A stretch of 42,483 nucleotides of DNA from the NCBI GenBank assembly GCA_028698995.1, contig JAQVVM010000042.1:1-42483 (forward strand), read 5' to 3'. The stretch comes from Bacteroidales bacterium (GTDB lineage: Bacteria > Bacteroidota > Bacteroidia > Bacteroidales > PXBB01). Under the pieces are notes generated by a model. That model worked only from the letters and a program-made list of their open reading frames with translations, made no database searches and was not told the origin of the DNA. Made by a program: the position numbers and the translations under genes. This document shows positions 12,555 to 37,122 of the stretch, piece after piece; within the stretch, counting starts at the first letter, position 1; each line of letters begins with the position of its first letter.

Positions 12555-13793
12555 ATGATGAAAGGAAATATAAACCTGTTGATATTTTTATTAGCTTTTT
12601 TAGGATTTATAGCCTGTAAAGATAAAAAAATTTCGAATAATACTTTTAACGAAAATAAAGGGAATTCTACGCAGTTTTTAAGTATTGTAGAAAGTTATAA
12701 CAGATTTGCTTTTAATTTATTTCAGTATTCTCCATATCAAACAAAGAATACCATTATTTCCCCTATGAGTGCAGCAATTTCATTAACTGCTTTATATAAT
12801 GGCACTACTAATCAAGCACAAGAAGAAATTAGTAGGGTTATGAGGTATTATGTTACAAAGGACACATTGAATAAGGATTTTTCTTACTTGATGAATCTGA
12901 TGAATCATTACAAAGATTCAGGAATTAAATTTAGCACAGACATGTCATTTTGGCATGAGAAGAGTCATAAATTCAACAGGGTATTTGTTGATATAATAAA
13001 TCATAGATATGGAAATTTGTTCCATAGTTTTGATGCACTGTTACAAAATAATTTGAATGTTGAAATCAACAAATGGATTCAGGGTATTAGCCCGGACTTT
13101 ATCTTTAATATAGGTGAAAGCAATAGTTTGAATGAAGAAGAAATGCTTGTGCTCAATGTGGTAACAATAGAGTCGTTATGGCAAAATACATTTAACAGTG
13201 AACAAGGTTTTATGGCAAATTTCTATTATGATAATCCTTCTGAAAGCAGAAATGTTCCTTTTATGAGAAAGATTGACAGCTTATATTATCGTTCAAATAA
13301 TGCCATGTTATTTATAGAATTGCCTTTCAAAGACAATAAGTTATCCTTTGTAGCAATTGTACCAAGATTTCATTCAGAATTCAGAAAGGTAGAAAATAAT
13401 GTAACATACGATGCTTATAAAAGAATGACATATCCACCAAGAAAAGAAAAAACACATGTTATAATTCCCCGATTTACCTTCAGTAATAATTTTTCTTTAA
13501 AACAAACACTAAAAGGTATGGGTATTAATTCAATTTTTCAAGATTCAGCATTTCCGACAAGTGAAAATAGATCATTAAAAATAAAAGACTTTCACCAATA
13601 TATTGAGATTAAAGTTGATGAGAATGGTATTGATACCATGCCGGTTGTAGAAGATGTTTTTAATGAGTTATTAAGTGGGAGAGTAGAACAAGAGGTGATT
13701 TTGGACAGGCCATTCATCTTTTTTATTAAGGAAAACCGGTACAATATGATTTTATTAATTGGGAGAATTTTTGAGCCAATACCTATTGTATAG
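12555..13793 (+). CDS. Serpin family lipoprotein
   Basis: 412 residues with a lipoprotein signal (hydrophobic 8-20, Cys21 in GFIACKDKK), so it is probably envelope-anchored. The serpin fold is shown by NRFAFNLFQYS and NTIISPMSAAISLTALYNGT near the N-terminus, LVLNVVTIESLWQNTF in the middle, FIELPFKDNKLSFVAIVPR, and the C-terminal DRPFIFFIKENRYNMILLIGRI. Inhibitory serpins trap serine or cysteine proteases by cleavage in the reactive loop. The hinge here reads VDENGIDTMPVVED and lacks the Thr/Ser and Ala-rich residues needed for loop insertion, so inhibition is doubtful. The gene runs opposite to the flanking rnc and IPExxxVDY-type genes, and its end overlaps rnc by 11 bp. ATGATG gives two possible starts. 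Serpins are patchy in bacteria, which suggests acquisition. Confidence 0.92.
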   Translation: MMKGNINLLIFLLAFLGFIACKDKKISNNTFNENKGNSTQFLSIVESYNRFAFNLFQYSPYQTKNTIISPMSAAISLTALYNGTTNQAQEEISRVMRYYVTKDTLNKDFSYLMNLMNHYKDSGIKFSTDMSFWHEKSHKFNRVFVDIINHRYGNLFHSFDALLQNNLNVEINKWIQGISPDFIFNIGESNSLNEEEMLVLNVVTIESLWQNTFNSEQGFMANFYYDNPSESRNVPFMRKIDSLYYRSNNAMLFIELPFKDNKLSFVAIVPRFHSEFRKVENNVTYDAYKRMTYPPRKEKTHVIIPRFTFSNNFSLKQTLKGMGINSIFQDSAFPTSENRSLKIKDFHQYIEIKVDENGIDTMPVVEDVFNELLSGRVEQEVILDRPFIFFIKENRYNMILLIGRIFEPIPIV

Positions 13794-16810: not shown

Positions 16811-18577
16811 TTACTCTGCTTTGTTTTTTTGTTCAAGTGCCCAATTAAGATTGATTTTTGCTGCTTCAAAATCGGGCTTAATGTTCAGGGCATTTTGGCA
16901 ATTGGTAATTGCATTATCCCATTGTTCTAAACCTATATAAGCACAACATTTATTGAAGTGAGCTTCAGCATAATCAGGTTTTAGGATCAAAGCCATATTA
17001 CAAGACTCAATACACTTATCGTACAATAGGATATTGTAAAAATCAAGACTTAAATTCAAGTAATATTCATAAGTAGGAACAATAGGGAACTTTTGCTTTT
17101 GTTCAATTGCCCATGTTTTATTAATTTTTGCGGGTTCAAGAGAAGGGTCAATTTGGAGTGCTTTGTCGCATGTTTCAATGGCTGCATCCCATTTTTCGAG
17201 ACCAATAAACGAGCAACAAATATTGAAGTAGGCCGGTGCATAATCAGGTTTGATTTTAATGGCCTCGATACATGCTTCAATTGTTTTATCGTACATCTTT
17301 AAATTGTAGAATTCTACACTTTTATTCAGATAATACTCCGGAGAGAATTCTCTTGTTGAGTTTAATTGCTCGTTACTGAACTGATTGGGTATTTCTGTTT
17401 TTTCAAAGTTATTAAACATAAAGCCAGGTTCACAGCAATGGGGCATTCGCCACAAAAGCATCAATGGAATAATAAGCAGGAAGAAAAGTTGTTTTTTTGT
17501 TGAAAAAATATTTTGAGTTAAGTTTTTAACAGTTTCTTGCATTGGTAAGATACTAGAAAGAAGGATGAGCAAGAGCATGAAATGGATATGAATCCACCTT
17601 CCCCAATCGATGGCATTGTAAAATAGTGGGCTACTAAAAACAATTGCAACTAAAAAAAACAAAAGAAAAACTTTAAATTGTTTTCTTTCTGAAAGAAAAA
17701 GATAGCTGAAAAAATGCACCAATCCAATTGAAAAACTAAGGATATATAAAAGATAAGCACCACTCATTTCTTTGTAGAACTCGAATATGTTGAATAGGTT
17801 AGGATAGACATTAAACCAAAAAACACCAACCCCGAAAGGAATAAAAGTGACACCTTTTTCCATTAAAATACCCAAAGACTTGCCAGCATTCAGATCTGTT
17901 CCAAAAAGTTTAAAAAGCAAGATGGCAATTAAAGAAGGAATGATATAAAATAGATATCTTTTAATTTCAATTCTTTTATTGAAATAATACAATGCGAAAA
18001 GAAAGTAGGGGATATAGAAGAATATTATTTCATGAAAAAAAGCTGATACAAAAATTAAACAGCAGATGACAAATTCTGACTTTTTTGATAATTTTTGTTC
18101 GTATAAAAGATACATGAAATAGGCAAATAGAGCTAACACCAGTATTTCTTTTCTTCCTACTGCACCAATATCGTTAAAATAGAAAAGAAAAGTGAGAGGT
18201 GAGAAAAACAAGGTGAGAAAGAAAATGTTTAATTCTTTTTTTATCAGGATTTTGATGAAGAACCAAAACAAAATTAGGATAAAAAAGGTATTTGAAATAA
18301 AAACAAGTATTTGTAATTTTAAGCCTGTAAGATGTTGCAGAAAGAAAAACAGACTGCCCGAAAGCCCCCTTCTCTTAAAACCACCATCAGTATAATTAAT
18401 AAGCCAATCCCCCAGTATGTAGCCATGAGGTTGTACAATGTCAAAATGATAGAGATGTTTTATTATCCAAATGAGGGTTAATAAAAATAATAAAAAAGTA
18501 GTTAATTTTGATGTTATCGAAAGCACAGAATCTTTGTTCATTTTTTCATTGAATATATTAAATTGTAAAAGAGTCAA
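16811..18577 (-). CDS. Polytopic membrane protein with C-terminal TPR repeats, paralogue 3 (GT-C-like?)
   Basis: 588 residues, no named family recognised. The N-terminal about 400 residues hold roughly nine to ten membrane segments. Features shared with the two upstream paralogues are LGDWLINYTDGGFKRRG after the first segment (D57, D64), FNDIGAVGRKE, FHEIIFFYIPYF and DWGRWIHIHFMLLL. The C-terminus (about 405-585) holds four TPR motifs in two pairs, each pair ending AKIN.(T/L)WA(I/L)EQK. Acidic residues in the first outward loop plus C-terminal TPRs recall GT-C glycosyltransferases of the TMTC type, so sugar transfer at the inner membrane is an inference only. The start at 18577 lies 6 bp after the previous gene; Met13 (18541) fits the paralogues' N-termini better. 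It is the last of three genes. Confidence 0.8.
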   Translation of the reverse strand: MTLLQFNIFNEKMNKDSVLSITSKLTTFLLFLLTLIWIIKHLYHFDIVQPHGYILGDWLINYTDGGFKRRGLSGSLFFFLQHLTGLKLQILVFISNTFFILILFWFFIKILIKKELNIFFLTLFFSPLTFLFYFNDIGAVGRKEILVLALFAYFMYLLYEQKLSKKSEFVICCLIFVSAFFHEIIFFYIPYFLFALYYFNKRIEIKRYLFYIIPSLIAILLFKLFGTDLNAGKSLGILMEKGVTFIPFGVGVFWFNVYPNLFNIFEFYKEMSGAYLLYILSFSIGLVHFFSYLFLSERKQFKVFLLFFLVAIVFSSPLFYNAIDWGRWIHIHFMLLLILLSSILPMQETVKNLTQNIFSTKKQLFFLLIIPLMLLWRMPHCCEPGFMFNNFEKTEIPNQFSNEQLNSTREFSPEYYLNKSVEFYNLKMYDKTIEACIEAIKIKPDYAPAYFNICCSFIGLEKWDAAIETCDKALQIDPSLEPAKINKTWAIEQKQKFPIVPTYEYYLNLSLDFYNILLYDKCIESCNMALILKPDYAEAHFNKCCAYIGLEQWDNAITNCQNALNIKPDFEAAKINLNWALEQKNKAE

Positions 18578-18583
18578 AACTAT

Positions 18584-20308
18584 TTAATCGTTTTTTTTAC
18601 TTAGAGCCCAATCTCTATTTATTTTTGCAGCTTCAAGGGTAGAATCGATTTCCAATGCCTTTTCACAGTTTTCTACGGCCAAATCCCATTTTTCAAGACC
18701 GATATAAGAACAACACATATTATAATAAGCAGGTGCAAAGTCGGATTTAAGTTTTAATGCTTCCAAACAGGCATTTATACACTTGTCGTACATTTGAGTA
18801 TTGTAATATTCCAGACTTAAATTCAGGTAATATTCAGGTGTATTGTTTGCATTTATAGAACGTTTTTGTTGAGAAATGAATTCTAAGTTTATAGATGCAG
18901 CCTCATTTGCAGGGTTAATTCTTAAAGCATTGGCGCAAGATTCAGTGGCTTTATCCCATTGCTCAAGTTGAATATAGCAACAGCACAGGTTATAATGTGC
19001 AATATCACAATCCGGATTAATTTGCAGTGCTTTAAAACAAGCATTCATGCTTTTTTCATACAATTTTCGGTTGTACATTACTTCGCTTAATCCTATGTAA
19101 GCTTCAATTGGAGGAGATTTGAAGGCATAATTATTAGAAAGTTTTTCTGCTATGTTTCTGAAAGGCAATTCAGCTTTTTTAAATTCAAATCCCTTCATAT
19201 ACATGGGCATAGACCAAATCAAACAAAATGGAATCAGTAACAAAAATTTTAAATTTTGTTTATTTGAAAGAATACTGTTGTTTTGTTGTGATTCAACCGT
19301 TTCTTCGGGTAATAAGAAAGCAAAAAGAATCAGAAAAAAGATAAAATGCATATTTAACCACCTACCCCAGTCAAGAGCAATAATAAAAAGAGGTAGAGTT
19401 GTAAGAAAAACAATTAAAAAAGCGGTAAGGAATTTCTTTAGAAGAAGTTTGTTTGTGTTAAATACAAAACCTGTAAAGTGCAAAAGTCCTAACGTTAAAC
19501 TGACAAAATACAGCATATATCCTGCAAATTCAGCTTTGATATTTTCAATGACATGTAATATAGAATCCCACCTGTCTGGCCACATGAAGATGCCGTAAAG
19601 GCTGAAAACAACACCTCTTTCATAAAGAATGTCTATTGAATCACCGTTGTTTATGCTGCTGCCAAAAAGATAAATGATAAGTAAAGGAATGAATGATGAA
19701 AGTACATATAAAGAATATCTTTTCAGTTCAATTTTTTTGTTGAAAAAATAAAGAGTAAGTCCAAAAAAAGGAGTATAAAAGAATATAACTTCATGGAGCA
19801 AGGTAGTTAGTGTTAAAAGAAAAAGGATAAAATATTCCTTCCTTGGTGTAAGCTTGTTGTTTGATAATAAATAGGTGAAGTAGGCAAAAATAGCAAAGAG
19901 TATTATTTCTTTACGACCTAGTGTTTCTATATCATTAAAAAAGTAAAGCAGAGTAAGAGGTGAAAGCAATAATGTAAAGTAATAAATATCTATAATTCTG
20001 TTTTTCAGTATTTTATAAAAATATTTAAAGAATATGAAATAACAAAATAATTGGGTTAAAAGAACAAAAAACTGTAGTTTAATAGTTGTTAAATCCTGAA
20101 GTAAGAAAAAAAAACTACCAGAAAGCCCTCTTCTTTTGAAGCCACCATCAGCATAGTTTATTAACCAATCTCCAAGGATATAACTGTGGGGTTGTAAATA
20201 CAGATTGAAATACAAAAAAATTGCAATCCAAATAAATGTTAGAACAAATAGTAATTGCACATAGTTTTTAAGATTCAGAAAATAATTATTGATCTTATTA
20301 ATTTCCAT
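18584..20308 (-). CDS. Polytopic membrane protein with C-terminal TPR repeats, paralogue 2 (GT-C-like?)
   Basis: 574 residues, co-linear with its two neighbours and plainly homologous. The first membrane helix (about 17-36) is followed by LGDWLINYADGGFKRRG (D47, D54). Further shared blocks are FNDIETLGRKE, LHEVIFFYTPFF and DWGRWLNMHFIFFLI. After a short linker (about 385) come two TPR pairs containing YNLCCCYIQLEQW and YNMCCSYIGLEKW. The TPR part should mediate protein contacts. Which side of the membrane it faces depends on the exact helix count, which cannot be settled by eye. It is 34 bp downstream of paralogue 1 and cotranscription is likely. Function unknown. Confidence 0.8.
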   Translation of the reverse strand: MEINKINNYFLNLKNYVQLLFVLTFIWIAIFLYFNLYLQPHSYILGDWLINYADGGFKRRGLSGSFFFLLQDLTTIKLQFFVLLTQLFCYFIFFKYFYKILKNRIIDIYYFTLLLSPLTLLYFFNDIETLGRKEIILFAIFAYFTYLLSNNKLTPRKEYFILFLLTLTTLLHEVIFFYTPFFGLTLYFFNKKIELKRYSLYVLSSFIPLLIIYLFGSSINNGDSIDILYERGVVFSLYGIFMWPDRWDSILHVIENIKAEFAGYMLYFVSLTLGLLHFTGFVFNTNKLLLKKFLTAFLIVFLTTLPLFIIALDWGRWLNMHFIFFLILFAFLLPEETVESQQNNSILSNKQNLKFLLLIPFCLIWSMPMYMKGFEFKKAELPFRNIAEKLSNNYAFKSPPIEAYIGLSEVMYNRKLYEKSMNACFKALQINPDCDIAHYNLCCCYIQLEQWDKATESCANALRINPANEAASINLEFISQQKRSINANNTPEYYLNLSLEYYNTQMYDKCINACLEALKLKSDFAPAYYNMCCSYIGLEKWDLAVENCEKALEIDSTLEAAKINRDWALSKKND

Positions 20309-20342
20309 TTATCGGTCTTTATTAATGTTAAAAAATAATGTT

Positions 20343-22079
20343 TTAATAAGATGCATTTTTCTGTTTTAATGACCACTCCAGATTTATTTTTGCTGCCTCA
20401 AAATCAGGCATGATATCTAAAGCTTTCTGACAATCTGAAACAGCATTATCCCATTGCGATAATCCAATATAAGCACAGCATTTATTATAATAAGCCTGAG
20501 CGTAGTCAGGTTTTAAATTAATGGCATTATTACAGGCTTCAATGCTTTTTTCAAACATTTGCATGTTATAATATTCCAAGCTTAAATTCAGGTAATATTC
20601 TGCTGTTGGGTTCTCGGGCAAGGTTTGCGTGTTTTGAAAAGCCCATGCTTTATTCGCTTTTGCCAAAGTATAATCCGGGTATATTCTCAGTGCATTGTCA
20701 CAGGCTTCAATGGCTTTATCCCATTGACCTAAAGCATTATATGCAGAACAGATATTGTTGTAAGCCTGAAAAAAGTCAGGGTTTATTTTTGTAGCATGCT
20801 CACACACTTCAATGCATTTTTCATATTGTTTTTCGTTATAATATGCCAAGCTTAGATTCAGTAATACATCAGGTGTTGGGCTATTACGTACCTGATGTTC
20901 TGCTACATGTATGAGAACCGGATAAAAATGGAAATCAATCTTCTTAATAACAAAGCCGGACCCATAGCCGGGCATGCCCCATAAAAGCATAATGGGTATC
21001 ATCATCCAATGCCAAGAAAATCCTTTTGAATTTCTATCAATTACCTGAATTTCGTCAACTGAATCCTTGTTTTCAAGAAATGCAGCAAATAAAATAAGTA
21101 AAAGCATAAAGTGACTATGAATCCATCTGCCCCAGTCTATAGCAAGAACAAATAAGGGTATGGTGTAAATTATCAAGGCTAAAGATAGTATGAGTAATTT
21201 CTTTAGGTTTTTTTTGTTATTCAAATAAATGAAATAAAAAAAGTGAAGCAATCCTGCAATAAGACTGATTGAATACATTATATAAGGAATTGCCCTCTCT
21301 TTGTAATAGGCAAAAGCATGAGAAACAGCTTCAGAACCTTCCGGCCAAATAAAAATGCCTTGGCTGTAATGGCTGAAAGTTACCCCTCTGCTTAGTAAAA
21401 TACCGATAGAATTTCCTTCGTTGATACTATTGCCAAATACATAAATAAGAACTACAGGAATAAAAGAGGCAAGAAAATAGGGGATATATCTTCTGATTTC
21501 AATTTTTTTGGTGAAAAAATACAATGCCACAATGAAATAGGGTGTATAGAAAAACATGACCTCATGGCATAATGTAGCAATGAAAATAAGAATACAAATC
21601 AGTGCTTCTTTTGTTTTTGATAACTTATTTTCTGCCAATAGGAAAATAAAAAATGCAAATAGTGCAAAAATTAATTGTTCTTTCTTTCCAATCGACTCCA
21701 CATCATTGAAATAAAACATTAAAGTAAGAGGTGAAATGACCAAAGTTAGGAAATAGATACTGATTTTTTTTCTGAGCAGTATTTTTGATAGGTAAAGGAA
21801 AAAAATAAAATACAACAATAGCTGAGAACAGTATGCCAAAGCTTGAAGACTGATGCCTGAAAAATTCTGAATTAAAAAAAGCAGGCTTCCGGTCAGACCT
21901 CTTCTTTTGAATCCCCCATCTTGATAGTTTACAAGCCAGTCTCCGAGTATATAGCCCTGAGGAAATGAAATATTAAAATGGTAAAGGAAACGCACAAGCC
22001 AGAAGAAAATAAAAATAAAAAAAACAATAATCAAGCTTTTCAAACTTAAAAATTGTTTTATATAACGTTCTTCGTCCAT
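20343..22079 (-). CDS. Polytopic membrane protein with C-terminal TPR repeats, paralogue 1 (GT-C-like?)
   Basis: 578 residues, first gene of the three-paralogue cluster. Membrane helix 1 (about 14-34) is followed by LGDWLVNYQDGGFKRRG (D47, D54). FNDVESIGKKE has Lys where the others have Arg; CHEVMFFYTPYF and DWGRWIHSHFMLLLI are shared. Between about 240 and 260 lies a loop with HYSQGIFIWPEGSEA. Four TPRs start near residue 395. The first pair (YNNICSAYNALGQW) lacks the double Cys seen in the other five positions of the family. The upstream 120 bp are AT-rich and separate it from the nitroreductase gene, so its promoter probably lies there. No signal peptide apart from helix 1. Function unknown; a GT-C-like transferase is the leading guess. 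Confidence 0.8.
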   Translation of the reverse strand: MDEERYIKQFLSLKSLIIVFFIFIFFWLVRFLYHFNISFPQGYILGDWLVNYQDGGFKRRGLTGSLLFLIQNFSGISLQALAYCSQLLLYFIFFLYLSKILLRKKISIYFLTLVISPLTLMFYFNDVESIGKKEQLIFALFAFFIFLLAENKLSKTKEALICILIFIATLCHEVMFFYTPYFIVALYFFTKKIEIRRYIPYFLASFIPVVLIYVFGNSINEGNSIGILLSRGVTFSHYSQGIFIWPEGSEAVSHAFAYYKERAIPYIMYSISLIAGLLHFFYFIYLNNKKNLKKLLILSLALIIYTIPLFVLAIDWGRWIHSHFMLLLILFAAFLENKDSVDEIQVIDRNSKGFSWHWMMIPIMLLWGMPGYGSGFVIKKIDFHFYPVLIHVAEHQVRNSPTPDVLLNLSLAYYNEKQYEKCIEVCEHATKINPDFFQAYNNICSAYNALGQWDKAIEACDNALRIYPDYTLAKANKAWAFQNTQTLPENPTAEYYLNLSLEYYNMQMFEKSIEACNNAINLKPDYAQAYYNKCCAYIGLSQWDNAVSDCQKALDIMPDFEAAKINLEWSLKQKNASY

Positions 22080-25420: not shown

Positions 25421-26758
25421 TTAGTCTTTAACACAACGCACACTGAACCCGCTCTCAATAGCATAGCTGGAACGACCAACAAGGGTAAGGCTGTAATTCA
25501 ATGCATGAACCCAAGCAAAAAAAAGTGGTTCCGTGGATGTCCAGAAATAAGCACTTTGTCCAAAATCCTCGAAAACGCCATTCCATGTATCACCACCGGG
25601 AAGGCCAGAAAAACCGCTTGAATTTGTTGCGCCTGCATTTGGTGCCCACCAATAAGTAGTACAGGTTTCTTTTAAGTTACCGCCTTCGTCAGTGCCAAGT
25701 AAACTAATTGTTGACATATCATAAGGAAAAGCATTAGGGTTACTGCCAGCATTTCTTTCTAAGGTGGTCCATTCGTAATGAGAAGGTATGTGCCAGCCAG
25801 TAGGGCAAAGACCTTTAACGGGAGTAGTGCACCTGTCGTTAGGTGGTGCGCCTGTGCCATTGCATTGGGAAGCCCCTTGCATCATGTTTTCCCACTCATA
25901 CAAACCACCCATGGGGCAATTGGGATCTGCTTGTCCGTTTACATTCATACAAAACTTTGTTCCTGAAACTTGTGGTGTTACAATGGGTGCATAAGTTCCT
26001 GCATTCAGATTTTCTGCCATCCACCATTGATTTCCTATCTTTACAATAGAGTAGTTGTTTCCATTGGCATCAGTACATGGGATAAAAGTAAAGGTGACAG
26101 TCTGACTATTAGATGGAACAAGCATATAGACGGTACGAAAATCACCTGATTTTCCTGTCAATTTCAATACATCACCTGAATTATATTGCATTTCAATTAA
26201 TGACTTTTGGACTTTCAATTCCTCTGTGCTTACGAGAACATGTGTGTTTGAAATTGTTTCAATATGCTTAAATTCAGTGCTTTCTGTGGGTTCATTTATA
26301 CTTACTATCCTAGAGTTGAAGCAAGAAGTCTCAACTTCAACCTTCAAAATGAATATTCCTTTATTTAACCCTTTAAGTTCATAGGTGTGATGACCTTTGG
26401 GAAGCAAATCCTCTAACTTAATAATTGTTCTTCCGGTTAAATCGTAAAGCTTTAAAGTTGTTTTTCCTGATGAGTAGGATTCAAAATTTACGAAACAATG
26501 GCCTGATGTTGGGTTAGGGTAGATATTTATTTCAGTTGCTTTACCTGAATTTTCTGCATTAATTCCGGTTTCAGCAACGAGATGCAAAATGTCAGTTCCA
26601 TTAAGTTCTAAATTTGTACATTGTGTCAGATTTTCAACTTTAACAAAGTCAACATTTGTGCTTGCTCCCGTTCCTGTAAAGTCAATCTGATAATTCTGAG
26701 CTTGGAGCAAAAAGCTTGTAGTTATTCCGAAAATTAAGGTCAATACTTTTGATTTCAT
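25421..26758 (-). CDS. Secreted FISUMP-domain protein with internal T9SS type A-like domain
   Basis: 445 residues with a signal peptide ending ...LLQAQ (about 1-20). Residues about 75-145 resemble a type A T9SS tail (INIYPNPTSGHCFVNF, LYDLTGR, LKGLNKGIFILKVE), but it is internal, not terminal. The C-terminal about 215 residues are a Fibrobacter succinogenes major paralogous domain: CTDANGNNYSIVKIGNQWWM, AENLN, GGLYEW, CPTGWHIPSHYEW, a GFSGLPGG-like segment, YFWTSTE and FSVRCVKD. FISUMP domains occur on exported proteins of Bacteroidota and Fibrobacteres; their function is unknown and a C-type-lectin-like fold is often suggested. Several Cys pairs suggest disulfides. It is isolated, with a 233-bp empty region upstream. 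Confidence 0.88.
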   Translation of the reverse strand: MKSKVLTLIFGITTSFLLQAQNYQIDFTGTGASTNVDFVKVENLTQCTNLELNGTDILHLVAETGINAENSGKATEINIYPNPTSGHCFVNFESYSSGKTTLKLYDLTGRTIIKLEDLLPKGHHTYELKGLNKGIFILKVEVETSCFNSRIVSINEPTESTEFKHIETISNTHVLVSTEELKVQKSLIEMQYNSGDVLKLTGKSGDFRTVYMLVPSNSQTVTFTFIPCTDANGNNYSIVKIGNQWWMAENLNAGTYAPIVTPQVSGTKFCMNVNGQADPNCPMGGLYEWENMMQGASQCNGTGAPPNDRCTTPVKGLCPTGWHIPSHYEWTTLERNAGSNPNAFPYDMSTISLLGTDEGGNLKETCTTYWWAPNAGATNSSGFSGLPGGDTWNGVFEDFGQSAYFWTSTEPLFFAWVHALNYSLTLVGRSSYAIESGFSVRCVKD

Positions 26759-28671: not shown

Positions 28672-29994
28672 TTATTCTGGTAATACGCCTGTGTAAAAGT
28701 CAATAATTTTTTTCTTAATTATCAGATTGTATTTAGCTGTGAGTAATTCCTTTTCTGAAGTGATGAATCTTTCTGCAACATCTGTAAACTCAAAAATGCC
28801 CATATTGCCGATTTCAAAAAGTCGTGATGCGTAATCGTATTCTTGTTTTAAAGCGTCATATTCTTTTTGTAATGCAAAAAAGAGTCTGTAAGCACTGTTA
28901 TAGTCTGTTACAGCAGTAAAAATTTTGTTTTCAAGTTCTAGGAGCAAATTTTTGGAATTTATTTTTGCGATTTCCATATCAATGCGTGCGATATCCATGC
29001 CTTGTCTGATTGTGTAATTCTGATAAAGAGGAATATTTAGCTTGAGGCCAATATATTGGTTAAAATTGTTGTGGATTTGTGTTCCGAAATTGTTGGTTAA
29101 ATTATTTGTTGAGGTTTTAGTACCAATTTGACCTTCAATCAGCAGAACAGGATACTTTAAAGATTGTGCTTGCTGGAATGCAAATTTTGAACCTTCAATT
29201 TCTGAATTTCCAATTTTAATATCAGGGAAAGAATTGATGGCTTTTTCAAGGGTTACATTGTAATCATACAAAGAAAGTTGTGTTTGAAGAGTATCCTCAG
29301 AATTAATTATTACAAATTCCTGTGTATTACTTAGTCCAAGTAAAAACATGAGTTGTGTTTTCTGTTGTTGTGAAAAATTTTCAGTCATTATAAGTAATGC
29401 TTCGTCCTGTGCAATTAGAGATTCTATGCTGTAAATATTTCTTTGATGTAGTATCCCAGAATTGATGCTTCCCTGAATAAATGTTTTCCTTTGTTGAAGT
29501 CTCTCTATCCTTTTTCTAATCAGTTCAGCACTCTCATCAGCCATTAAAACTTGGTAATAATAGAATGTTATTTCAAGAGCAATTTCATTAAATCTTTTTT
29601 CGAATTTAAGGTTTGCAGTATTTACTTGGCTACGGCAAAGATTTTTATGGTATTTATTATAAAATCCTCTGAAAAGATTAAAATCCGAGTTTAGCTGGAA
29701 GCTGTTCATATAGGTATTGCCAAAGTCCAGAATGTTGGTTGTGGGATCTATCAAAAAGCCATAGTTATTACCTGTTCTGATATCAGCATCCAGGTTGGGA
29801 TAAATAAGGTGTTTTGATGCTGTCTGATTGATTTGTGCTCTATCAATTTCCTGTTTAAGCAGTGCAAGCTCAATATTGCTTTCTTTTGCAGTCTCCAGAC
29901 ATTTTTTTAAATCCCAAACTTCTTGAGCCGAAAGGTTCTGTAAGTAAAGAAGGAGCAATAAAATAATGTTGAATTTCATTTTTATCATATTCAT
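28672..29994 (-). CDS. TolC family outer-membrane efflux protein
   Basis: 440 residues with a signal peptide (about 1-23, LSAQ). WDLKKCLETAKESNIELALL starts the first TolC helix. The duplicated helix-strand layout is visible: YPNLDADIRTGNNYG and LKLNIPLYQNYTIRQGMDIA are the beta-barrel strands, and long heptad-rich helices lie between about 100-200 and 325-430. It forms an outer-membrane channel together with a periplasmic adaptor, here probably the HlyD-type protein encoded three genes upstream in the same operon. No inner-membrane pump (ABC, RND or MFS) is encoded in the operon. The start ATG at 29994 is close to a second Met (MKMKF region), either of which gives a good signal peptide. Substrate unknown. 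Confidence 0.92.
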   Translation of the reverse strand: MNMIKMKFNIILLLLLYLQNLSAQEVWDLKKCLETAKESNIELALLKQEIDRAQINQTASKHLIYPNLDADIRTGNNYGFLIDPTTNILDFGNTYMNSFQLNSDFNLFRGFYNKYHKNLCRSQVNTANLKFEKRFNEIALEITFYYYQVLMADESAELIRKRIERLQQRKTFIQGSINSGILHQRNIYSIESLIAQDEALLIMTENFSQQQKTQLMFLLGLSNTQEFVIINSEDTLQTQLSLYDYNVTLEKAINSFPDIKIGNSEIEGSKFAFQQAQSLKYPVLLIEGQIGTKTSTNNLTNNFGTQIHNNFNQYIGLKLNIPLYQNYTIRQGMDIARIDMEIAKINSKNLLLELENKIFTAVTDYNSAYRLFFALQKEYDALKQEYDYASRLFEIGNMGIFEFTDVAERFITSEKELLTAKYNLIIKKKIIDFYTGVLPE

Positions 29995-30003
29995 TAAAAT
30001 GAA

Positions 30004-30678
30004 TTAGTCTTCATCATAAAATAAATTAACCTGTCTGACATTGCTTAGTTTCTTCAATTCAGCAATAAGTACTTGTCCTTTATTCTCATTCTTTAGGTTC
30101 ACGTAAAATGAAATTTCAAGGATGTCATGCTCTTCCTCTCCTAATGTTTTGACATTGATAACTTTATATTTCCAGCAATATTTTCTTAAAATATTATCAA
30201 ACTCATTATTTTCACCTGCAGAACTTAAGGATATGAGTTGTAAAAGATATTCCCTGCGTTTGGGCATTGCAAAATTTACTTTATTAATAATGACAAAAGC
30301 AGCTCCGATAATGATGGTAGCGAAAATGGCAACGGAGAAAAGTTTAACACCGCAAGCAAGACCTATTGCCAATGAAAAGAAGATAAACATAATATCTGAA
30401 GCATCTTTAACAGCAGTACGGAACCGAATAATTGACATGGCACCCACCATTCCAAAAGCACGAGCAAGATTATTACCAATAACCATAATAACAACACTTG
30501 TTATCATGGTAAGCATAACAAGCGAAACTGTAAAAGAAGCTGAATAACTCAGACCTTTATATGTCCAACGGTATATCATCGAAATTCCTACTCCACAAAG
30601 CAGTGCCACTAAAATATTTGCAATAACATCCTTGATAGTGATACTGAAAACAAAAATATTCTGAAAATCTGTCAGCAT
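30004..30678 (-). CDS. DUF4956 membrane protein
   Basis: 224 residues. Four membrane segments lie at about 16-36, 46-68, 94-110 and 113-132. The DUF4956 hallmark is the loop GAMSIIRFRTAVKDASDIMF (78-97), whose charged residues (R84, R86, K90, D91) are unusual within a membrane protein. A cytoplasmic C-terminal domain (about 140-224) looks ACT/ferredoxin-like. The function of DUF4956 is not established. From memory it is often encoded beside VTC polyphosphate polymerase-like and CotH genes, as here. It follows the VTC gene by 6 bp and precedes tolC by 9 bp, so translational coupling is likely. A transport or polymer-translocation role is inference. Confidence 0.9.
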   Translation of the reverse strand: MLTDFQNIFVFSITIKDVIANILVALLCGVGISMIYRWTYKGLSYSASFTVSLVMLTMITSVVIMVIGNNLARAFGMVGAMSIIRFRTAVKDASDIMFIFFSLAIGLACGVKLFSVAIFATIIIGAAFVIINKVNFAMPKRREYLLQLISLSSAGENNEFDNILRKYCWKYKVINVKTLGEEEHDILEISFYVNLKNENKGQVLIAELKKLSNVRQVNLFYDED

Positions 30679-30684
30679 AATTTT

Positions 30685-31431
30685 TTAATAAAGTTGTAAT
30701 GATTTTAGATTGTTTACATCGTAACCAATTGTATATTTTGAAAGTGCTTCATGTCTCAGCTTAAATTCTTCAACAAGACTTTTAGCCCAGCTTGGCATAT
30801 TGTCGCCATAATATTTTATTTCAAGAATAAAATGACTGTCAAAAAGATATTTGAGATTATTATCACAATATAATTCTTTAAGAGGAGTGTAAGTTCTACT
30901 TCTTATGTTTTTATCAAAAGTAATTCTTGTGCCTGAATCAAATTTCCCATGATATGCTTCTCTGTCATACACAATCAGAACCGTAGGTTTAAATTGGTAC
31001 TTCACAATATGATAAAAAAAACGTTTAGCATCTTCTACACCTTCAGTATATTTGTTATCCTTAATGACAAATTTTTCTACATCTCCGGAAGCAAACACAT
31101 TCTCAACATCATCAAATAACATAAAAGCACGGTGCTTACGGATGCGGTCTTCAATTTTTCGTTTGATTTCAAAAACAACTTTACATCCATTACAGTAATT
31201 GTCATAGCCACGTACTCTGAATTTGCGACGAAACATAATTCCATCACCTTTTTCGTAATAACTTATAAGGTCATTACTGTCAAAATAGATGCTTCTTACT
31301 GTATATTGGTTAATCCCTTTTTCGTTCACAGAAGTAAAACTATCAGGTCTTACAAATGTGATAAGGCGCTTGCGTAAAGCATCCATTAATGAATTTGGAA
31401 CAAGATATTTTCTTTCGTATCTGAGCAGCAT
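30685..31431 (-). CDS. VTC domain protein (polyphosphate polymerase-like)
   Basis: 248 residues forming one VTC/CYTH-type tunnel domain. Basic and acidic residues of the tunnel are visible: ERKYLVP (6-12), RSIYFDS (46-52), FRRKFRVRGY (67-76), VFEIKRKI (86-93), RIRKHRAF (96-103) and, near the C-terminus, FILEIKYYGDNMPSW. Yeast Vtc4 uses such a tunnel to make polyphosphate from ATP; bacterial single-domain members beside DUF4956 are annotated by similarity and their activity is unproven. The protein is cytoplasmic with no membrane anchor and would work with the DUF4956 membrane protein encoded 6 bp downstream. The upstream HlyD-type gene ends 1 bp before its start. Confidence 0.9.
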   Translation of the reverse strand: MLLRYERKYLVPNSLMDALRKRLITFVRPDSFTSVNEKGINQYTVRSIYFDSNDLISYYEKGDGIMFRRKFRVRGYDNYCNGCKVVFEIKRKIEDRIRKHRAFMLFDDVENVFASGDVEKFVIKDNKYTEGVEDAKRFFYHIVKYQFKPTVLIVYDREAYHGKFDSGTRITFDKNIRSRTYTPLKELYCDNNLKYLFDSHFILEIKYYGDNMPSWAKSLVEEFKLRHEALSKYTIGYDVNNLKSLQLY

Positions 31432-31432
31432 T

Positions 31433-32530
31433 TTAGTTTTCTGAAACTGTATTAAACAATCTTAAAAAATATTCAAAAAGAGAAATTTCTCCACATTCAA
31501 TTGAGCCATCAAGAAACATATTAAAGAACATCTGGTCTATGTTTTCCGTAATTTCAACAGTGATAAAAATAACCTGTCTTCTTTTTAAAATCTGAACAGA
31601 ATTGTCAATATCAATTATTTTTCCTTGAATAATTTTTCCCTGAGGGGTTTCCCCGAAATTTACAATCCCGTCCAATTTCAGATATTTGTTTTCATAAAAT
31701 TCAATTGGCAATACAACAAGCATACTGCTGATATCAACCATTTTAATGATTTCTTCAATATCAATAATATTTCCGTTTAAATCAACATTGCCTTTTTTCT
31801 GGCGTATAATTTTTCCATTGAACGGGGCAATAATTATGTTTGCTTTGATTTTTTTATTGAGTTGTTCAATTTGTTGTTCATACGATTCAATAAGACCTGT
31901 GCTTAGATTCAGTTGTTCTTCTTTTGCACCGGTTTCCATATTTCTGACATTAGATTCAGCTATTTTAAAATTGTGTTCTTTAATTTTTAATTCATTCAGA
32001 GCTATTTCAAAGTCGTTTCTTGATACCAAACTATCATTATACAGTCTGTTGACTCTTTCAAAAATACCCTTTTGGGTTTCCCATTCAACAGAGGCAAGTT
32101 CTTTTAGTTCTCTGTAGTAATCAACAAGTTCTTGTTTTTCTCCTGATGCGTACACATCAAATAATCGTTCTTCGTTGATAAGTTTTCCTTCAAGTTCCAA
32201 CAAACGCAAGCGGTCTTCGTTTGAGTAAATATAACCAATTGTATCGCTATAATTTATAGTGAGTTTGGAGAATATTTCATTGTTGAGAATAAATTCTGAT
32301 GCATCACCCCTAACAAATTCTGAAACAGAATATTGAGAAATACTGTTGATGCGGTTATTACGTAAAACAGTAAAGAGGGTTCCGTTTGTGGATTTACTTA
32401 TCGTCCACTCTTGAATCGGATATACAATACCTTTTGAAGAAATAGAGTAAGGAATTTTAATAAAGTATGAGCTGACTGCAAGCGTAATTATTACTAATAA
32501 AATAATGATTGTGGTTTTTTTGTTTTTCAT
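31433..32530 (-). CDS. HlyD family membrane fusion (adaptor) protein
   Basis: 365 residues. There is one N-terminal membrane anchor (about 6-24), then a split lipoyl/barrel domain (SSKGIVYPIQEW early, IIIAPFNGKIIRQKKGN late) around a long alpha-helical hairpin (about 105-235, with many Glu, Lys and Leu and the turn VSRNDFEIAL-type). This is the architecture of the periplasmic adaptor that links an inner-membrane machine to TolC. No pump is encoded alongside it. The flanking genes encode CotH (55 bp upstream) and VTC (1 bp downstream), so it appears dedicated to this operon. The C-terminus lacks a long membrane-proximal extension. Substrate unknown. Confidence 0.88.
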   Translation of the reverse strand: MKNKKTTIIILLVIITLAVSSYFIKIPYSISSKGIVYPIQEWTISKSTNGTLFTVLRNNRINSISQYSVSEFVRGDASEFILNNEIFSKLTINYSDTIGYIYSNEDRLRLLELEGKLINEERLFDVYASGEKQELVDYYRELKELASVEWETQKGIFERVNRLYNDSLVSRNDFEIALNELKIKEHNFKIAESNVRNMETGAKEEQLNLSTGLIESYEQQIEQLNKKIKANIIIAPFNGKIIRQKKGNVDLNGNIIDIEEIIKMVDISSMLVVLPIEFYENKYLKLDGIVNFGETPQGKIIQGKIIDIDNSVQILKRRQVIFITVEITENIDQMFFNMFLDGSIECGEISLFEYFLRLFNTVSEN

Positions 32531-32585
32531 TTTTCCTGAGAATGAATAGAGAGATTTTAACCGGATTTTCGATTATACGTTTATT

Positions 32586-34409
32586 CTAAAAAATTGTTGC
32601 CTTTTCAATTTGTTGCCCTACTTTGATGAAATAAAGGCCACTTCTAAACCCTGAAACATCAATAGAAGCCGGAAATGACAAAAGGTTTTTATACACTTTT
32701 TTCCCTGTAATATCATAAATAATTAGCTCTTCAATCAAAAATGTGGTTTTATTGATTTGTAATATTTTAGAGTTACTGTTATAGTAAATAAAAAAGTTAT
32801 TGGAGTTGACTTTTATTGAGGGGGTTCCAACAATATCTATAAGATTAAAATAGGCATGTTCAGCCTGCTCCGGTGAAAAAATACCGGCAAACTGATTTTC
32901 TGCATATATATAGAACTGGCTGTAAGCTATGTTTGCAGTTAAAGAAATACCAAATATATTATCACCTGCAATGCCATCATTGTGATTGCCATCATCAAGC
33001 ATGCTGAACAATTCAAACTTCTGAAAATGGTCTGGTCTGAAGCCTATAAATACATTTGTTGCATTATTCACCTGAGCAGTTATATTGGCAGTTGATGTAG
33101 GTTGAGAAAATGTTGAAGAAATATTTGTTACTACAGGAGGTATTGCAGTAAATTCAGACTGTGCTTGTATATATTCAATACGATCTGACATCAGGTTTGA
33201 AATACCCGGTGTCAAATAAGCTCCTGCTGAAATATCTGTTGTTAATGAATTATGAAACTGAGCATCTGAAAAGAACTTATTTGTATCTGCTGTTACAAGA
33301 CTGTCTATCAATGTCTGCATTTGATTTGCCAGAGTAATATACAAATTATTAGAGAAGAAATCATTGATTAATGTTCTCAAATGGGCCACATATTTTCTTT
33401 TATAAACAGGGTTCTGCATAATGGTATTAATAAGTGGCCAATAGGGATCTGATGCATGAAAATCAATCGGGAAGTTCTTCATGTTATCAATGGATAATGC
33501 GGCCATACTTGTATTTGAAGAACCTGCAAAGGGAAATCCTCCAAAAGACATATTTAAATCCCAGACCACAGGGTTAAAGACACCATTATTATCTTTAAAG
33601 AGGTAGTAATTTTGAGCAAATGTACCAGAATAGCTGTCGAGATTTACCAATAGGTTGTTGAAAGCCAGCATCCAGATTGCTCTGTCCATGTCAATGTATG
33701 AAGCAGCTACTGATTGGTTGTTGGTTACAATGTTACACAATTCAACCAGATCGCTCCACCCGTAATCCGATTTAAGTTCATAATAATCTGAATAGGCTAA
33801 ACTGTCGGCAGAAATGTACTTCAGATTACTTTTAACTGAAGGGCCGGGTGTTGTTGCCGGATTACATTTTATAAAAGTGTTGTTTTTCAGGCTTAAAAAG
33901 CTTTTTGAACAGAATGTCTTATTTACATCTTCAATGTTTGAATAAAGTCCAATGTAATTGTTGTTTATATATAGTTGGGCAAAATTTGCTTTAGAGCAAT
34001 ACATATAGTTCTTTAGGATATTATAAGATAATATTTCCCTTATCATGGATGGATCCTGATAACCATTGCTTAGTTTGATGTCTGTTATATCGTTGTAAGA
34101 CTGGCTCTGATATTTATCTAAAGAAATATGAAAAGGATTTTTAGTAAAAGATGAATCATATGAGCTGCTGCCTTTATATTTCACACCTACATCAGAAAAA
34201 ACGGTTCCATTTATAATTATCGAATCCGCCTGTAAATAATCGCCGGTTGTTGCTTTAAGTGTATCTAGCTGATATTCCCAGTTGCTCTGAGAAAAGAATA
34301 ATTCAATTTTTTGAATGGTATCTAAATTGTAAAAAGATGGTTGGGCATTAATATGTTTAGCCCCATAGAATATAGAAAACAAACAAAATATGAGATAGTG
34401 TTTTTTCAT
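32586..34409 (-). CDS. CotH kinase family protein with T9SS type A tail
   Basis: 607 residues with a signal peptide (about 1-22, INAQ). CotH core: IELFFSQSNWEYQLDTL, GVKYKGSSSY (75-84), KNPFHISLDKY (90-100), YINNNYIGLYSNIEDV, then MDRAIWMLAFNNLLVNLDSY with D258, and PVVWDLNMSFGG with D284 and N286, the expected catalytic and metal-binding region. Spore-coat CotH of Bacillus is a protein kinase that phosphorylates other coat proteins; this predicts an extracellular kinase here. A linker with an Ig-like segment (about 420-520) and a type A sorting tail (LIIYDITGKKVYKN, GFRSGLYFIKVG) follow. It starts 2 bp after the upstream gene's stop codon. Candidate substrates are the two T9SS proteins encoded upstream. 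Confidence 0.92.
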   Translation of the reverse strand: MKKHYLIFCLFSIFYGAKHINAQPSFYNLDTIQKIELFFSQSNWEYQLDTLKATTGDYLQADSIIINGTVFSDVGVKYKGSSSYDSSFTKNPFHISLDKYQSQSYNDITDIKLSNGYQDPSMIREILSYNILKNYMYCSKANFAQLYINNNYIGLYSNIEDVNKTFCSKSFLSLKNNTFIKCNPATTPGPSVKSNLKYISADSLAYSDYYELKSDYGWSDLVELCNIVTNNQSVAASYIDMDRAIWMLAFNNLLVNLDSYSGTFAQNYYLFKDNNGVFNPVVWDLNMSFGGFPFAGSSNTSMAALSIDNMKNFPIDFHASDPYWPLINTIMQNPVYKRKYVAHLRTLINDFFSNNLYITLANQMQTLIDSLVTADTNKFFSDAQFHNSLTTDISAGAYLTPGISNLMSDRIEYIQAQSEFTAIPPVVTNISSTFSQPTSTANITAQVNNATNVFIGFRPDHFQKFELFSMLDDGNHNDGIAGDNIFGISLTANIAYSQFYIYAENQFAGIFSPEQAEHAYFNLIDIVGTPSIKVNSNNFFIYYNSNSKILQINKTTFLIEELIIYDITGKKVYKNLLSFPASIDVSGFRSGLYFIKVGQQIEKATIF

Positions 34410-34411
34410 TC

Positions 34412-35389
34412 TTACTGTACTATATATTTAAAAGCAGTTTGTTTTTTATTTAAGATATTGGTAACAAAAATAAAATAAATGCCCGGTTTAAGATTGGCAA
34501 TGCTTAATGAGGAGTTTGTAAAGTCTTCATATGAATTTATGAGAGAACCTTTTGCGTCATTTATTGAAATATTATTGTGCAGCTCATTGAAAAATATTTT
34601 AGCGTTACCATTTGAGGGATTGGGAAATATATTTACCGCAGATGTTTCTACATCATTAATGCCTGTGCCACAAGGGCCACAACCGGAAAAGCAAACAACA
34701 GCCATTATGGTGTCTTTTGCAACAAAAATACTTCTGTTGTTGTTTGTTGCACATCCTGCAGGCACTATTTCAGCATTAATGGCATTACTTCCATTGGCAA
34801 ATTTATATTCGTAATTTCCATCAGGCATATACTGTATTACTTCATAAATGCTACTTTCGAAGCTATAAAGTGCTGACAGAGCAAACCCCCACGAATTAAA
34901 GCTTCCGGCTACATGCACCCCATTGGCAGAGACTGTTTCATAGCTCATGTCAACTAAAAAACGGACTAATTTTTTCCCTTCAGGGGCATTGCCTCCGTAT
35001 TTGATAGCTCCAATTAAAGTAGTGTCGTTGGCTATGGAGTCAATATAAATCCAGCGGTTATCGTTAAAACCATAGCCTACCTGTGATTCAACCGGAATAA
35101 ATTCTGTCTCATAAAACAAATCACCATTTATAAAACGGTATTCATATTTTTGAAAGGCAGGAATATTAACAATAATACTGTAAATATTTGATGACCCTTC
35201 CTGAAGCATGGTACATATGGCGGGATTCCAGTTATCAATATAACCTGCTGCTATTTGAAAATCACCGGAAACATGAATCCCGTTTGGACTTATTGTTTGC
35301 CCTGTCATATCAACAGAAAATTTAACACTCTTAGCAAAAATAGTTGTGCCTGTGAGAAGCACAAAAATACAAACTATTATCTTTTTCAT
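34412..35389 (-). CDS. T9SS protein with two starch/glycogen-binding-like domains
   Basis: 325 residues with a signal peptide (about 1-19, IFAK). Two homologous domains, about 21-125 and 140-235, share VKFSVDM...SPNGIHVSGDFQ / VRFLVDM...SANGVHVAGSFN, then W, then YEYRFINGD / YEYKFANGS, then NDNRWIYI / NNNRSIFV. This matches the early-Ig/CBM20-CBM48 type found in starch- and glycogen-binding proteins, so polysaccharide or protein binding is likely. A Cys cluster, CFSGCGPCG, ends the second domain. A type A tail follows (VNIFPNPSNGNAKIFF, LKPGIYFIFVTN). It lies between the arylsulfotransferase-like gene (11 bp) and cotH (2 bp). It may be a CotH substrate or scaffold; that is inference. Confidence 0.8.
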   Translation of the reverse strand: MKKIIVCIFVLLTGTTIFAKSVKFSVDMTGQTISPNGIHVSGDFQIAAGYIDNWNPAICTMLQEGSSNIYSIIVNIPAFQKYEYRFINGDLFYETEFIPVESQVGYGFNDNRWIYIDSIANDTTLIGAIKYGGNAPEGKKLVRFLVDMSYETVSANGVHVAGSFNSWGFALSALYSFESSIYEVIQYMPDGNYEYKFANGSNAINAEIVPAGCATNNNRSIFVAKDTIMAVVCFSGCGPCGTGINDVETSAVNIFPNPSNGNAKIFFNELHNNISINDAKGSLINSYEDFTNSSLSIANLKPGIYFIFVTNILNKKQTAFKYIVQ

Positions 35390-35400
35390 TTTTATTTAAA

Positions 35401-37122
35401 TTATTTAATGAGTGATAATTTTTTAATAACTTTTTTATTGTTTTCAAAAGTGAAAACTACAAAATAAAGTCCTGATTGATAATCTTTTAAATCAAATGAT
35501 TTAATGTTGTTATCATTCAAAATGATTCTTCCAATGGGGTCAAATACTTCAAGCAGATAGTTTAAATTGTTTGAAGGCAACTTAATATTGAAAACATTTG
35601 ATGACGGGTTGGGATAAATTTCCAGGTTGTCAATTGCATTTTCATTGGTTCCGACTGTTACATCAACAACGACAGAAGATGTGGAAGAACAGCCCAGAGC
35701 CGTATTGGTTACCAATACTGTATATGTTGTTATTGTATTAGGTGTCAAAATAGGGTTTTGTACAGACGATGTAAATCCTGCCGGATTTGAAGACCAATCG
35801 TAAGTATAAGTAGGGTTAGTTTCAGTTACTGAAGTAGCGGTTGCGTTAAGAGTCACCGGTGTGCCGGCTGTAATTTGAGTTTGTGAAGCACCTGCTGTAG
35901 CTATTGGCCCTCTTACATAACAAAGAGAGTACCTGTATACATGTGTTGAATTTGTACTGGTTTTAGACCAGACTATAGTATTTGAAGAATCAATTTCATA
36001 AACTGAAGCAAAAGAATTGTTTACAATCATATTCCCGTTTGGTAATTGTTGAGAATTACCTTCATTCTGGCAGGTAAAAGAAGAGTTGTATTGATAGGCG
36101 TAGTTTGCCGGGCCATAAGCCTGACCTGCTGTATAGGAATAATTGTATCCATTGTAAGGAGGACTCCATATGGTAATAGCCGTTTTACTGCCTGTTCCGC
36201 CCTTATTATTGTAGGCACAAAGATAATTGGGATATTTAGGATTATCAGAAGATATCCAATGGGCATCGTGTATGACATTAAATTTAGCTGTTCCTGAGGC
36301 TCCATATGAAGCCGGATTACCCCAACGATATAGAAAATCGCCTCCTTTGCCTGAGTTACCTCCTGTATGGCCTGCTGCTTCGGCTGTTGTTGTACTGTGG
36401 TCTATTACAAACACCTGATTCATATAATGCATACTTACAACTATCTGATCAAGAGCAGCATTATAATCCACACCATTCATGTGCCATCGGTCTGATAAGT
36501 CACTGCCAGTAGTGTAATTGATATTCAGCAATTCAGGGTGATCAGAAATAGTGGCATAATAGTTATCTTTAGCGGCATTATAATTCTGACACAGGTGATC
36601 CCATAAATGCCATTCCCATACAACAGTTCCAGTTGTAGGTCCTGTAGGATGCACCTCCATAAGTTTTTCCGATTTTATTGTTACATTGCTTGATGCACCT
36701 GCCTGAGTAGCTTCTGCGCTGGTTTTTTTTTCGTAAGCAATCATAAGCACATTACCGTTGGGCATAGGGCAGATGTCATGATGCAGCGTGAAATTTGCAC
36801 TGTTGTACTGAAAATCCCAGGCCACTGTACCAATCCATGTCACTTTTTGCACGCCTCCTGTAACACCTCCACCTGTCATCCCTCCGGATGACGTATAATT
36901 ATATGATCTTACTATTGTATCTCCGGGAATGAGATAGGCTGAATAACCCGATGTTTTGTTTGAAGCAAACGTCCATGAATGATACTGGGTGCTGTTAGTA
37001 TCAACTAGGTAAGCGCTTGTCTGACCTTTTGTCGCATAAAAAGTGTACATACCCCATTGCTGAGCAAATGAAGAAGTCATCGAAATTATTATTAATGTTG
37101 CTAAAAATTGATATTTTCTCAT
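35401..37122 (-). CDS. Arylsulfotransferase (ASST)-like T9SS protein
   Basis: 573 residues with a signal peptide ending SSFAQQ (about 21). Residues 40-410 follow the ASST beta-propeller pattern: LHHDICPMPNGNVLMIA, VVWEWHLWDH, DRWHMNGVDYN (H214, at the place of the His sulfated during catalysis), QIVVSMHYMNQVFVIDHST (H232), DFLYRWGNP, FNVIHDAHWI and NSQQLPNGNMIVNN. ASSTs move sulfate between phenolic compounds in the periplasm; in exported Bacteroidota homologues activity is untested. An Ig/PKD-like domain (about 415-490) and a type A sorting tail (LEIYPNPSSNVFNIKL, YQSGLYFVVFTF) follow. It is the first gene of the eight-gene operon, 102 bp upstream of which (on the other side) the LytTR regulator gene ends. 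Confidence 0.87.
   Translation of the reverse strand: MRKYQFLATLIIISMTSSFAQQWGMYTFYATKGQTSAYLVDTNSTQYHSWTFASNKTSGYSAYLIPGDTIVRSYNYTSSGGMTGGGVTGGVQKVTWIGTVAWDFQYNSANFTLHHDICPMPNGNVLMIAYEKKTSAEATQAGASSNVTIKSEKLMEVHPTGPTTGTVVWEWHLWDHLCQNYNAAKDNYYATISDHPELLNINYTTGSDLSDRWHMNGVDYNAALDQIVVSMHYMNQVFVIDHSTTTAEAAGHTGGNSGKGGDFLYRWGNPASYGASGTAKFNVIHDAHWISSDNPKYPNYLCAYNNKGGTGSKTAITIWSPPYNGYNYSYTAGQAYGPANYAYQYNSSFTCQNEGNSQQLPNGNMIVNNSFASVYEIDSSNTIVWSKTSTNSTHVYRYSLCYVRGPIATAGASQTQITAGTPVTLNATATSVTETNPTYTYDWSSNPAGFTSSVQNPILTPNTITTYTVLVTNTALGCSSTSSVVVDVTVGTNENAIDNLEIYPNPSSNVFNIKLPSNNLNYLLEVFDPIGRIILNDNNIKSFDLKDYQSGLYFVVFTFENNKKVIKKLSLIK

Follow-up and report, generated by a model that had tools for sequence, protein, structure and literature searches.

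Three tandem genes

The window analysed here is the whole of contig JAQVVM010000042.1 (42,483 nucleotides; GenBank assembly GCA_028698995.1) from a Bacteroidales bacterium. It carries three co-directional genes on the minus strand that encode paralogous membrane proteins with C-terminal tetratricopeptide repeats (TPRs), and these proteins probably belong to an unnamed family of GT-C(A) glycosyltransferases, called here the GGFxRRG family. Paralogue 1 (P0003, 578 amino acids [aa]) is encoded at 20343..22079, paralogue 2 (P0002, 574 aa) at 18584..20308 and paralogue 3 (P0001) at 16811..18577. The third open reading frame (ORF) gives 588 aa from a TTG and 576 aa from an ATG at 18541, and the ATG fits the alignment of the paralogues better. 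Paralogues 1 and 2 are separated by 34 bp, and paralogues 2 and 3 by 6 bp, or 42 bp if the ATG is the start.

The initial annotation, made from the sequence alone, had described three tandem paralogues of 574-588 residues with a membrane part and C-terminal TPRs, and the ORFs, the Pfam matches and a full-length pairwise identity of 45-48% agree with that description. All of the motifs that it named (GDWL.NY.DGGFKRR, FND...G(R/K)KE, HE.(I/M)FF and DWGRW) are present in the alignment. Identity within the trio is 46-47% in the membrane part, 12-24% in the linker and 48-55% in the TPR part, rising to 60-67% in the last TPR half. In a tree of the family, the grouping of paralogue 1 with paralogue 2 has support of 86/89 and the placement of paralogue 3 is without support; all three are united in 34% of bootstrap trees, and a single origin of the trio is likewise unsupported.

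The Pfam model TPR_1 scores above its curated cut-off in all three proteins (E 2.2e-24 to 2.9e-19), with 3, 4 and 4 passing stretches, and the predicted full-length structure of paralogue 1 has 11 C-terminal helices; the TPRs proposed earlier are therefore confirmed, with a correction to the uniform count of four. The TPR tail of paralogue 1 spans residues 386-577 (20349..20924), as judged from Pfam, the full-length model and structural matches to TPR proteins, and those of paralogues 2 and 3 lie at 18587..19108 and 16814..17344 according to Pfam and the identity comparison. The tail shows internal duplication, the two halves in paralogue 1 being 48% identical over 83 residues.

The membrane part, residues 1-370 of paralogue 1 (20970..22079), behaves differently in library searches. 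Weighty matches of the trio in Pfam and NCBIfam were to TPRs only, and among 28 family members tested the best membrane-part matches were at E 0.07 (Pfam) and 0.024 (NCBIfam). No PDB sequence matched the membrane part, PADLOC and PHROGs gave weak matches only, and a scan of the genome contigs gave a TPR match only. Neither Pfam nor NCBIfam thus has a model for the family that the membrane part represents, and the statement that no named family could be recognised holds for this part of the proteins.

Predicted fold and topology of the membrane part

A model of full-length paralogue 1 (pLDDT 80.5, pTM 0.63), when compared by VIA-align, matched TPR proteins only, and the membrane part was therefore folded alone with AlphaFold2 (28 alignment rows; pLDDT 86.3, pTM 0.90). 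This second model was compared with 769 chains, and among the best 50 of these, rows 1-49 have titles that identify them as GT-C enzymes or as complexes containing such an enzyme, with Z values of 6.1-10.7 over 249-326 aligned residues; row 50 is unrelated, with a Z of 3.7. The matches are almost exclusively of the GT-C(A) kind and include Pmt4 (Z 10.7), AftB (10.6), ALG12 (10.4), AftD (10.1), PglB (9.0), ArnT (8.6), ALG3 (8.1), ALG6 (7.3) and PimE (6.8), as well as chains of the glycosylphosphatidylinositol (GPI) transamidase (8.3, 6.7 and 6.1). SEDS, WaaL and WzyE are not named among the best 50, which is an absence from that list only. Foldseek ranks 1-11 are likewise GT-C proteins, the best being AftB (E 7.6e-3, prob 1.00), and from rank 12 onward receptors and transporters appear in this list, which underlies the VIA-align comparison. 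None of them is found among the 49 GT-C rows of VIA-align, and because the Z values alone are moderate, this contrast is the main argument for the fold. A viral structure library gave nothing below 1e-3, the best match (1.2e-3) being an uncharacterised phage protein.

The GT-C(A) fold is described, in the sections available of PMC12041299, as a core of seven helices, with a pair of juxtamembrane helices lying between transmembrane helices (TM) 1 and 2. The predicted membrane part has this arrangement, with helices 42-49 and 62-74 placed between crossings 1 and 2, further helices within the loop between crossings 7 and 8, and a C-terminal domain after crossing 11. The layout resembles that of AftB, a mycobacterial arabinofuranosyltransferase of the GT-CA class, for which the same source reports that the first loop on the periplasmic side has two juxtamembrane helices, that helices also lie between TM7 and TM8, and that a domain follows TM11 (PMC12041299). 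The trio, too, would have a periplasmic domain C-terminal to crossing 11, although TPRs take the place of the alpha/beta domain of AftB and no sequence similarity to AftB was found. Pmt4, ALG12, PglB/STT3, ArnT and ALG6 appear to share the membrane fold, whereas they belong to separate sequence families, with a root-mean-square deviation (rmsd) of 5-7 A and 6-11% identity. Together, the models support a GT-C(A) fold for the membrane part, in keeping with the GT-C resemblance proposed at the outset; the proposal of an oligosaccharide-transferase kind was not borne out.

Topology was read from the model helices and the loop charges, which place the N-terminus inside, about 11 crossings in the membrane rather than the ten or so first counted, and the C-terminus outside. 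The density of Lys and Arg is 0.219 in the presumed inner loops versus 0.081 in the outer loops, and it is higher inside in 34/34 family members. On this topology the invariant residues described below and the TPRs would therefore lie outside; the charge bias agrees with the earlier placement of the motif loops on the outer rather than the cytoplasmic side.

A family with nine invariant positions

A single-sequence search found relatives of the trio in 0/98 other genomes, and a three-row profile of the trio matched 7/395 genomes, namely its own, three good and three weak, with the strong matches in one other genus. The weak matches (G217, G259 and G274) were discarded as chance, since they were short, interrupted by stops or, on inspection by eye, not the same protein. 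These searches overlooked most relatives, and widened profiles were needed. They matched 6/395 genomes of the phylum (one, G466, was discarded because the 496-aa protein lacks the motif), 16/120 genomes of the family of G362 and 3/247 genomes of the window's order, own included; G738 holds four copies and G741 two. All of the relatives found by profile are in Bacteroidota. The own genome holds a fourth member, 415 aa long and without TPRs, adjoining a GT2 gene. The resulting 34-member alignment consists of 24 rows from the family of G362 (24 of 26 match rows, two G500 fragments being excluded), six from the window's order, the 415-aa protein and the trio. A DNA motif pattern matched 4/395 genomes, and the own-genome match alone was real. 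No membrane-part relative was found in viral contigs, phages or plasmids, and the plasmid matches listed fall in the TPR part. In a collection of 5.39 million papers that covers only a minority of subscription journals, the strings GGFVRRG, GGFKRRG and GFVRRGL were not found, and a literature search for GT-C proteins with TPRs in Bacteroidetes also returned nothing.

Nine positions are invariant in 34/34 members (numbering of paralogue 1): G56, R60, G61, G64, D/E134, H172, E173, D315 and R318. Six of the nine are charged or His, and all nine are placed in predicted outer loops. Four fall in the first outer loop, whose motif is D/E-x(8-9)-GF-x-RRG or close variants; in paralogue 1 this is residues 46-64, GDWLVNYQDGGFKRRGLTG (21888..21944), and the alignment places the equivalent stretch at residues 46-64 of paralogue 2 (20117..20173) and residues 44-62 of paralogue 3 counted from the ATG (18356..18412). 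The full motif set of the family comprises GF-x-RRG, K/R-x-D/E (a few members vary in its first position), HE and DxxR, and P308 is present in 33/34 members.

D47 and D54 had been put forward as a catalytic pair. Position 47 is acidic in 28/34 members (D in 20 and E in 8, with H in 5 and S in 1), and all five H47 members carry D51; from the alignment, D47 is a fair candidate for a catalytic residue. D54 is found in only 19/34 members and is therefore not a family-wide catalytic residue.

Relation to TMTC-like proteins

The resemblance to TMTC proteins suggested at the start can be examined within the same genome: searched with a TMTC-like GT-C protein that bears TPRs, it yields 23 matches, which correspond to about 22 ORFs of 515-943 aa. 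Such genes occur in 51/89 genomes examined, own included. In the own genome, six TMTC-like ORFs stand in a row on C58 (C58:15866-27013), and further ones lie on C25, C41, C61, C65, C72, C75, C85, C89, C104 and others. Such a number of putative lipid-fed sugar transferases in one genome is unusual and points to an expansion.

TMTCs are described in the available text of PMC7801869 as having 11 crossings and lumenal TPRs, with motifs RxD in outer loop (EL) 2, KE in EL3, a Pro in TM9 and ERxxY in EL5. The trio resembles TMTC1-4 and the bacterial TMTC-like proteins in its predicted 11 crossings, inside N-terminus and outside TPR tail, and the family has [KR]x[DE], HE, P308 and DxxR at the corresponding places, giving a basic-x-acid motif in EL2, a Pro in TM9 and an Arg-aromatic pair in EL5. 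When the 34-member family was compared with 30 bacterial TMTC-like proteins by hhalign, the score was 45.0 (P 67.9%), above 100/100 controls (50 block shuffles per side, maxima 33.0 and 32.5) and above the reversed family (19.2), EpsG (21.9) and a neighbouring membrane family, 'c4' (29.4). This alignment puts K132-K133-E134 on R-K-D and R318-W319 on R-Y, and the HE pair one residue off an S-K pair. Taken alone, the main clade (19 members) scored 39.8 and the nine-member E47 clade scored 23.1, and a single TMTC-like sequence against the family gave nothing. Unlike TMTCs, the family has GF-x-RRG in its first loop in place of DD or a YRP/SHKSYRP-type motif, as checked in the alignments, and unlike the TMTC-like proteins its membrane part has no Pfam match. 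The likeness to TMTC is moderately supported, as a resemblance that includes motifs in register in EL2 and EL5.

The TPR tail provides a second connection. Within the genome, the best match to the trio tail is the tail of a TMTC-like gene on C72 (E 2e-30, the next being 1.4e-8), with up to 53% identity over 83 residues for paralogue 1. A domain exchange inside this genome, in either direction, explains the shared tail best. Among the 34 aligned members TPRs are restricted to the trio, the other open frames being at most 485 aa, and the TPR fusion is the rarer form of the family.

Genomic context

Many relatives lie within surface-polysaccharide clusters, together with genes for a glycosyltransferase, Wzz-like kinase, Poly_export, ABC2/Wzt, bacterial sugar transferase, UbiA and FAD_binding_4, and some have a GtrA gene at a distance of about 7 kb. 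EpsG (PF14897) is encoded in the same cluster as the family gene at L025 (adjoining), L079, L080 and L083, and the family is therefore unlikely to be the polymerase there. At L025-L027 and L067-L069, a family gene lies near topA (named by eye from sequence), together with an EpsG-cluster gene and one further membrane gene. Members at L028, L070, L074 and L078 are outside any visible glycan cluster.

A 333-337 aa membrane protein in tandem with EpsG (L025:17778-18791 and five orthologues; 'c4', or A8) carries YAYR, RE and ETR motifs and has no Pfam match above cut-off. It was rejected as a relative of the family (P 2-3%), and it is perhaps another GT-C-like family, with a P of 8% against the TMTC-like profile. 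Large secreted proteins of one cluster adjoin family genes at L025, L026 and L069, with a type IX secretion system (T9SS) tail confirmed in L026.

The trio itself is flanked by formyltransferase and nitroreductase genes. About 3.3 kb away is a Fib_succ_major T9SS protein (25421-26758), and this pattern of T9SS neighbours may be coincidence. Elsewhere in the window are a bacterial serpin (12555-13793; Pfam Serpin, E 1.6e-61) and a cluster at 28672-37122 with an outer membrane efflux protein, DUF4956, a VTC domain, a CotH kinase and T9SS-tailed proteins that include an arylsulfotransferase.

Proposed function and alternatives

The donors of known GT-C(A) enzymes are polyprenyl phosphates or diphosphates that carry a sugar or an oligosaccharide, according to the parts available of PMC10920833, and three-component systems with a GT-C(A)-type enzyme add O-antigen side sugars in the periplasm, as portions of PMC11127046 describe. 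The likeliest function of the family, we infer, is the transfer of a single sugar, and the trio probably acts in this way. Most likely, a polyprenyl-phosphate carrier would supply the sugar on the outer side of the inner membrane, and the periplasmic acceptor could be a surface glycan, either lipid-linked or polymerised, or else a secreted protein. For catalysis the acidic residue 47 would be the best candidate, the carrier phosphate would probably be held by R60 and R318, and D/E134, H172, E173 and D315 may line the pocket. The C-terminal TPR array, predicted on the same side, would most likely bind the acceptor (protein or glycan) or a partner protein.

Several observations weigh against this proposal. 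No Foldseek match is as low as 1e-3, the VIA-align values (rmsd 5-7 A, Z 6-11) are in the range about which the tool cautions for helical bundles, and Pfam, NCBIfam and PDB sequences gave the membrane part no sequence match. The hhalign P of 67.9% is not conclusive, resting mainly on crossings 3-5, and the nine-member E47 clade alone reaches P 1% against the TMTC-like profile. The acid at position 47 is replaced by His in five members and Ser in one, which counts against the proposal because the AftB authors state, in the portion available, that no GT-CA enzyme lacks a catalytic Asp at the tip of juxtamembrane helix 1 (PMC12041299). Finally, no glycan gene lies beside the trio within the window.

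A narrower form of the single-sugar reading, compatible with it, holds that the trio are TMTC-like protein O-glycosyltransferases whose TPRs bind secreted protein acceptors. The outer TPR tail that follows 11 crossings and has its counterpart in TMTCs (PMC7801869, in part), the identity of up to 53% between the tail of paralogue 1 and that of a TMTC-like protein in the same genome and the lack of TPRs in the relatives from glycan clusters all favour this version; TPRs also serve in partner binding or complex assembly, however, and we regard it as possible and hold it tentatively. The more specific idea that the trio arose from a surface-glycan GT-C enzyme joined to a TMTC-like TPR tail, and now forms part of a Bacteroidota set of transferases for protein O-glycosylation, is speculative and should be given a low probability.

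A role as a polymerase of the Wzy/EpsG kind, or as a ligase, in joining lipid-PP-linked repeat units is also unlikely for the family. The location of many relatives in exopolysaccharide or O-antigen clusters would suit such a role, and a long loop after the first helix with conserved Arg, Asp and His recalls clan GT-C3, as treated in the available part of PMC10920833. Where EpsG is encoded beside or near the family gene, however, the polymerase post seems taken, and the structural matches of the model are to GT-C(A) enzymes. Membership in EpsG/Wzy was rejected, the profile comparison being not significant (P 0.2-1.2%); the family has no match to the EpsG model, whereas cluster neighbours match it at 7.9e-44 and weaker.

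PIG-U is a non-catalytic subunit of the GPI transamidase, and some of the GPI transamidase chains among the VIA-align matches are presumably PIG-U. A comparable non-catalytic subunit sharing the GT-C membrane arrangement would fit those matches and a presumed catalytic acid that is not universal, yet nine invariant outer-loop positions over 34 divergent members point to an active site and make this the least probable of the alternatives.

Implications

If the family transfers single sugars as proposed, the surface-polysaccharide clusters with members would hold one sugar-assembly step without an assigned enzyme, and the motif set GF-x-RRG, K/R-x-D/E, HE and DxxR offers a way to annotate the family. 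The Tannerella O-oligosaccharyltransferase and glycan-core enzymes were called unknown in 2022, in the part available of PMC8729774, and candidates like the trio are therefore worth testing. The trio itself would be a case of a second GT-C lineage carrying the TPR tail known from TMTC proteins.

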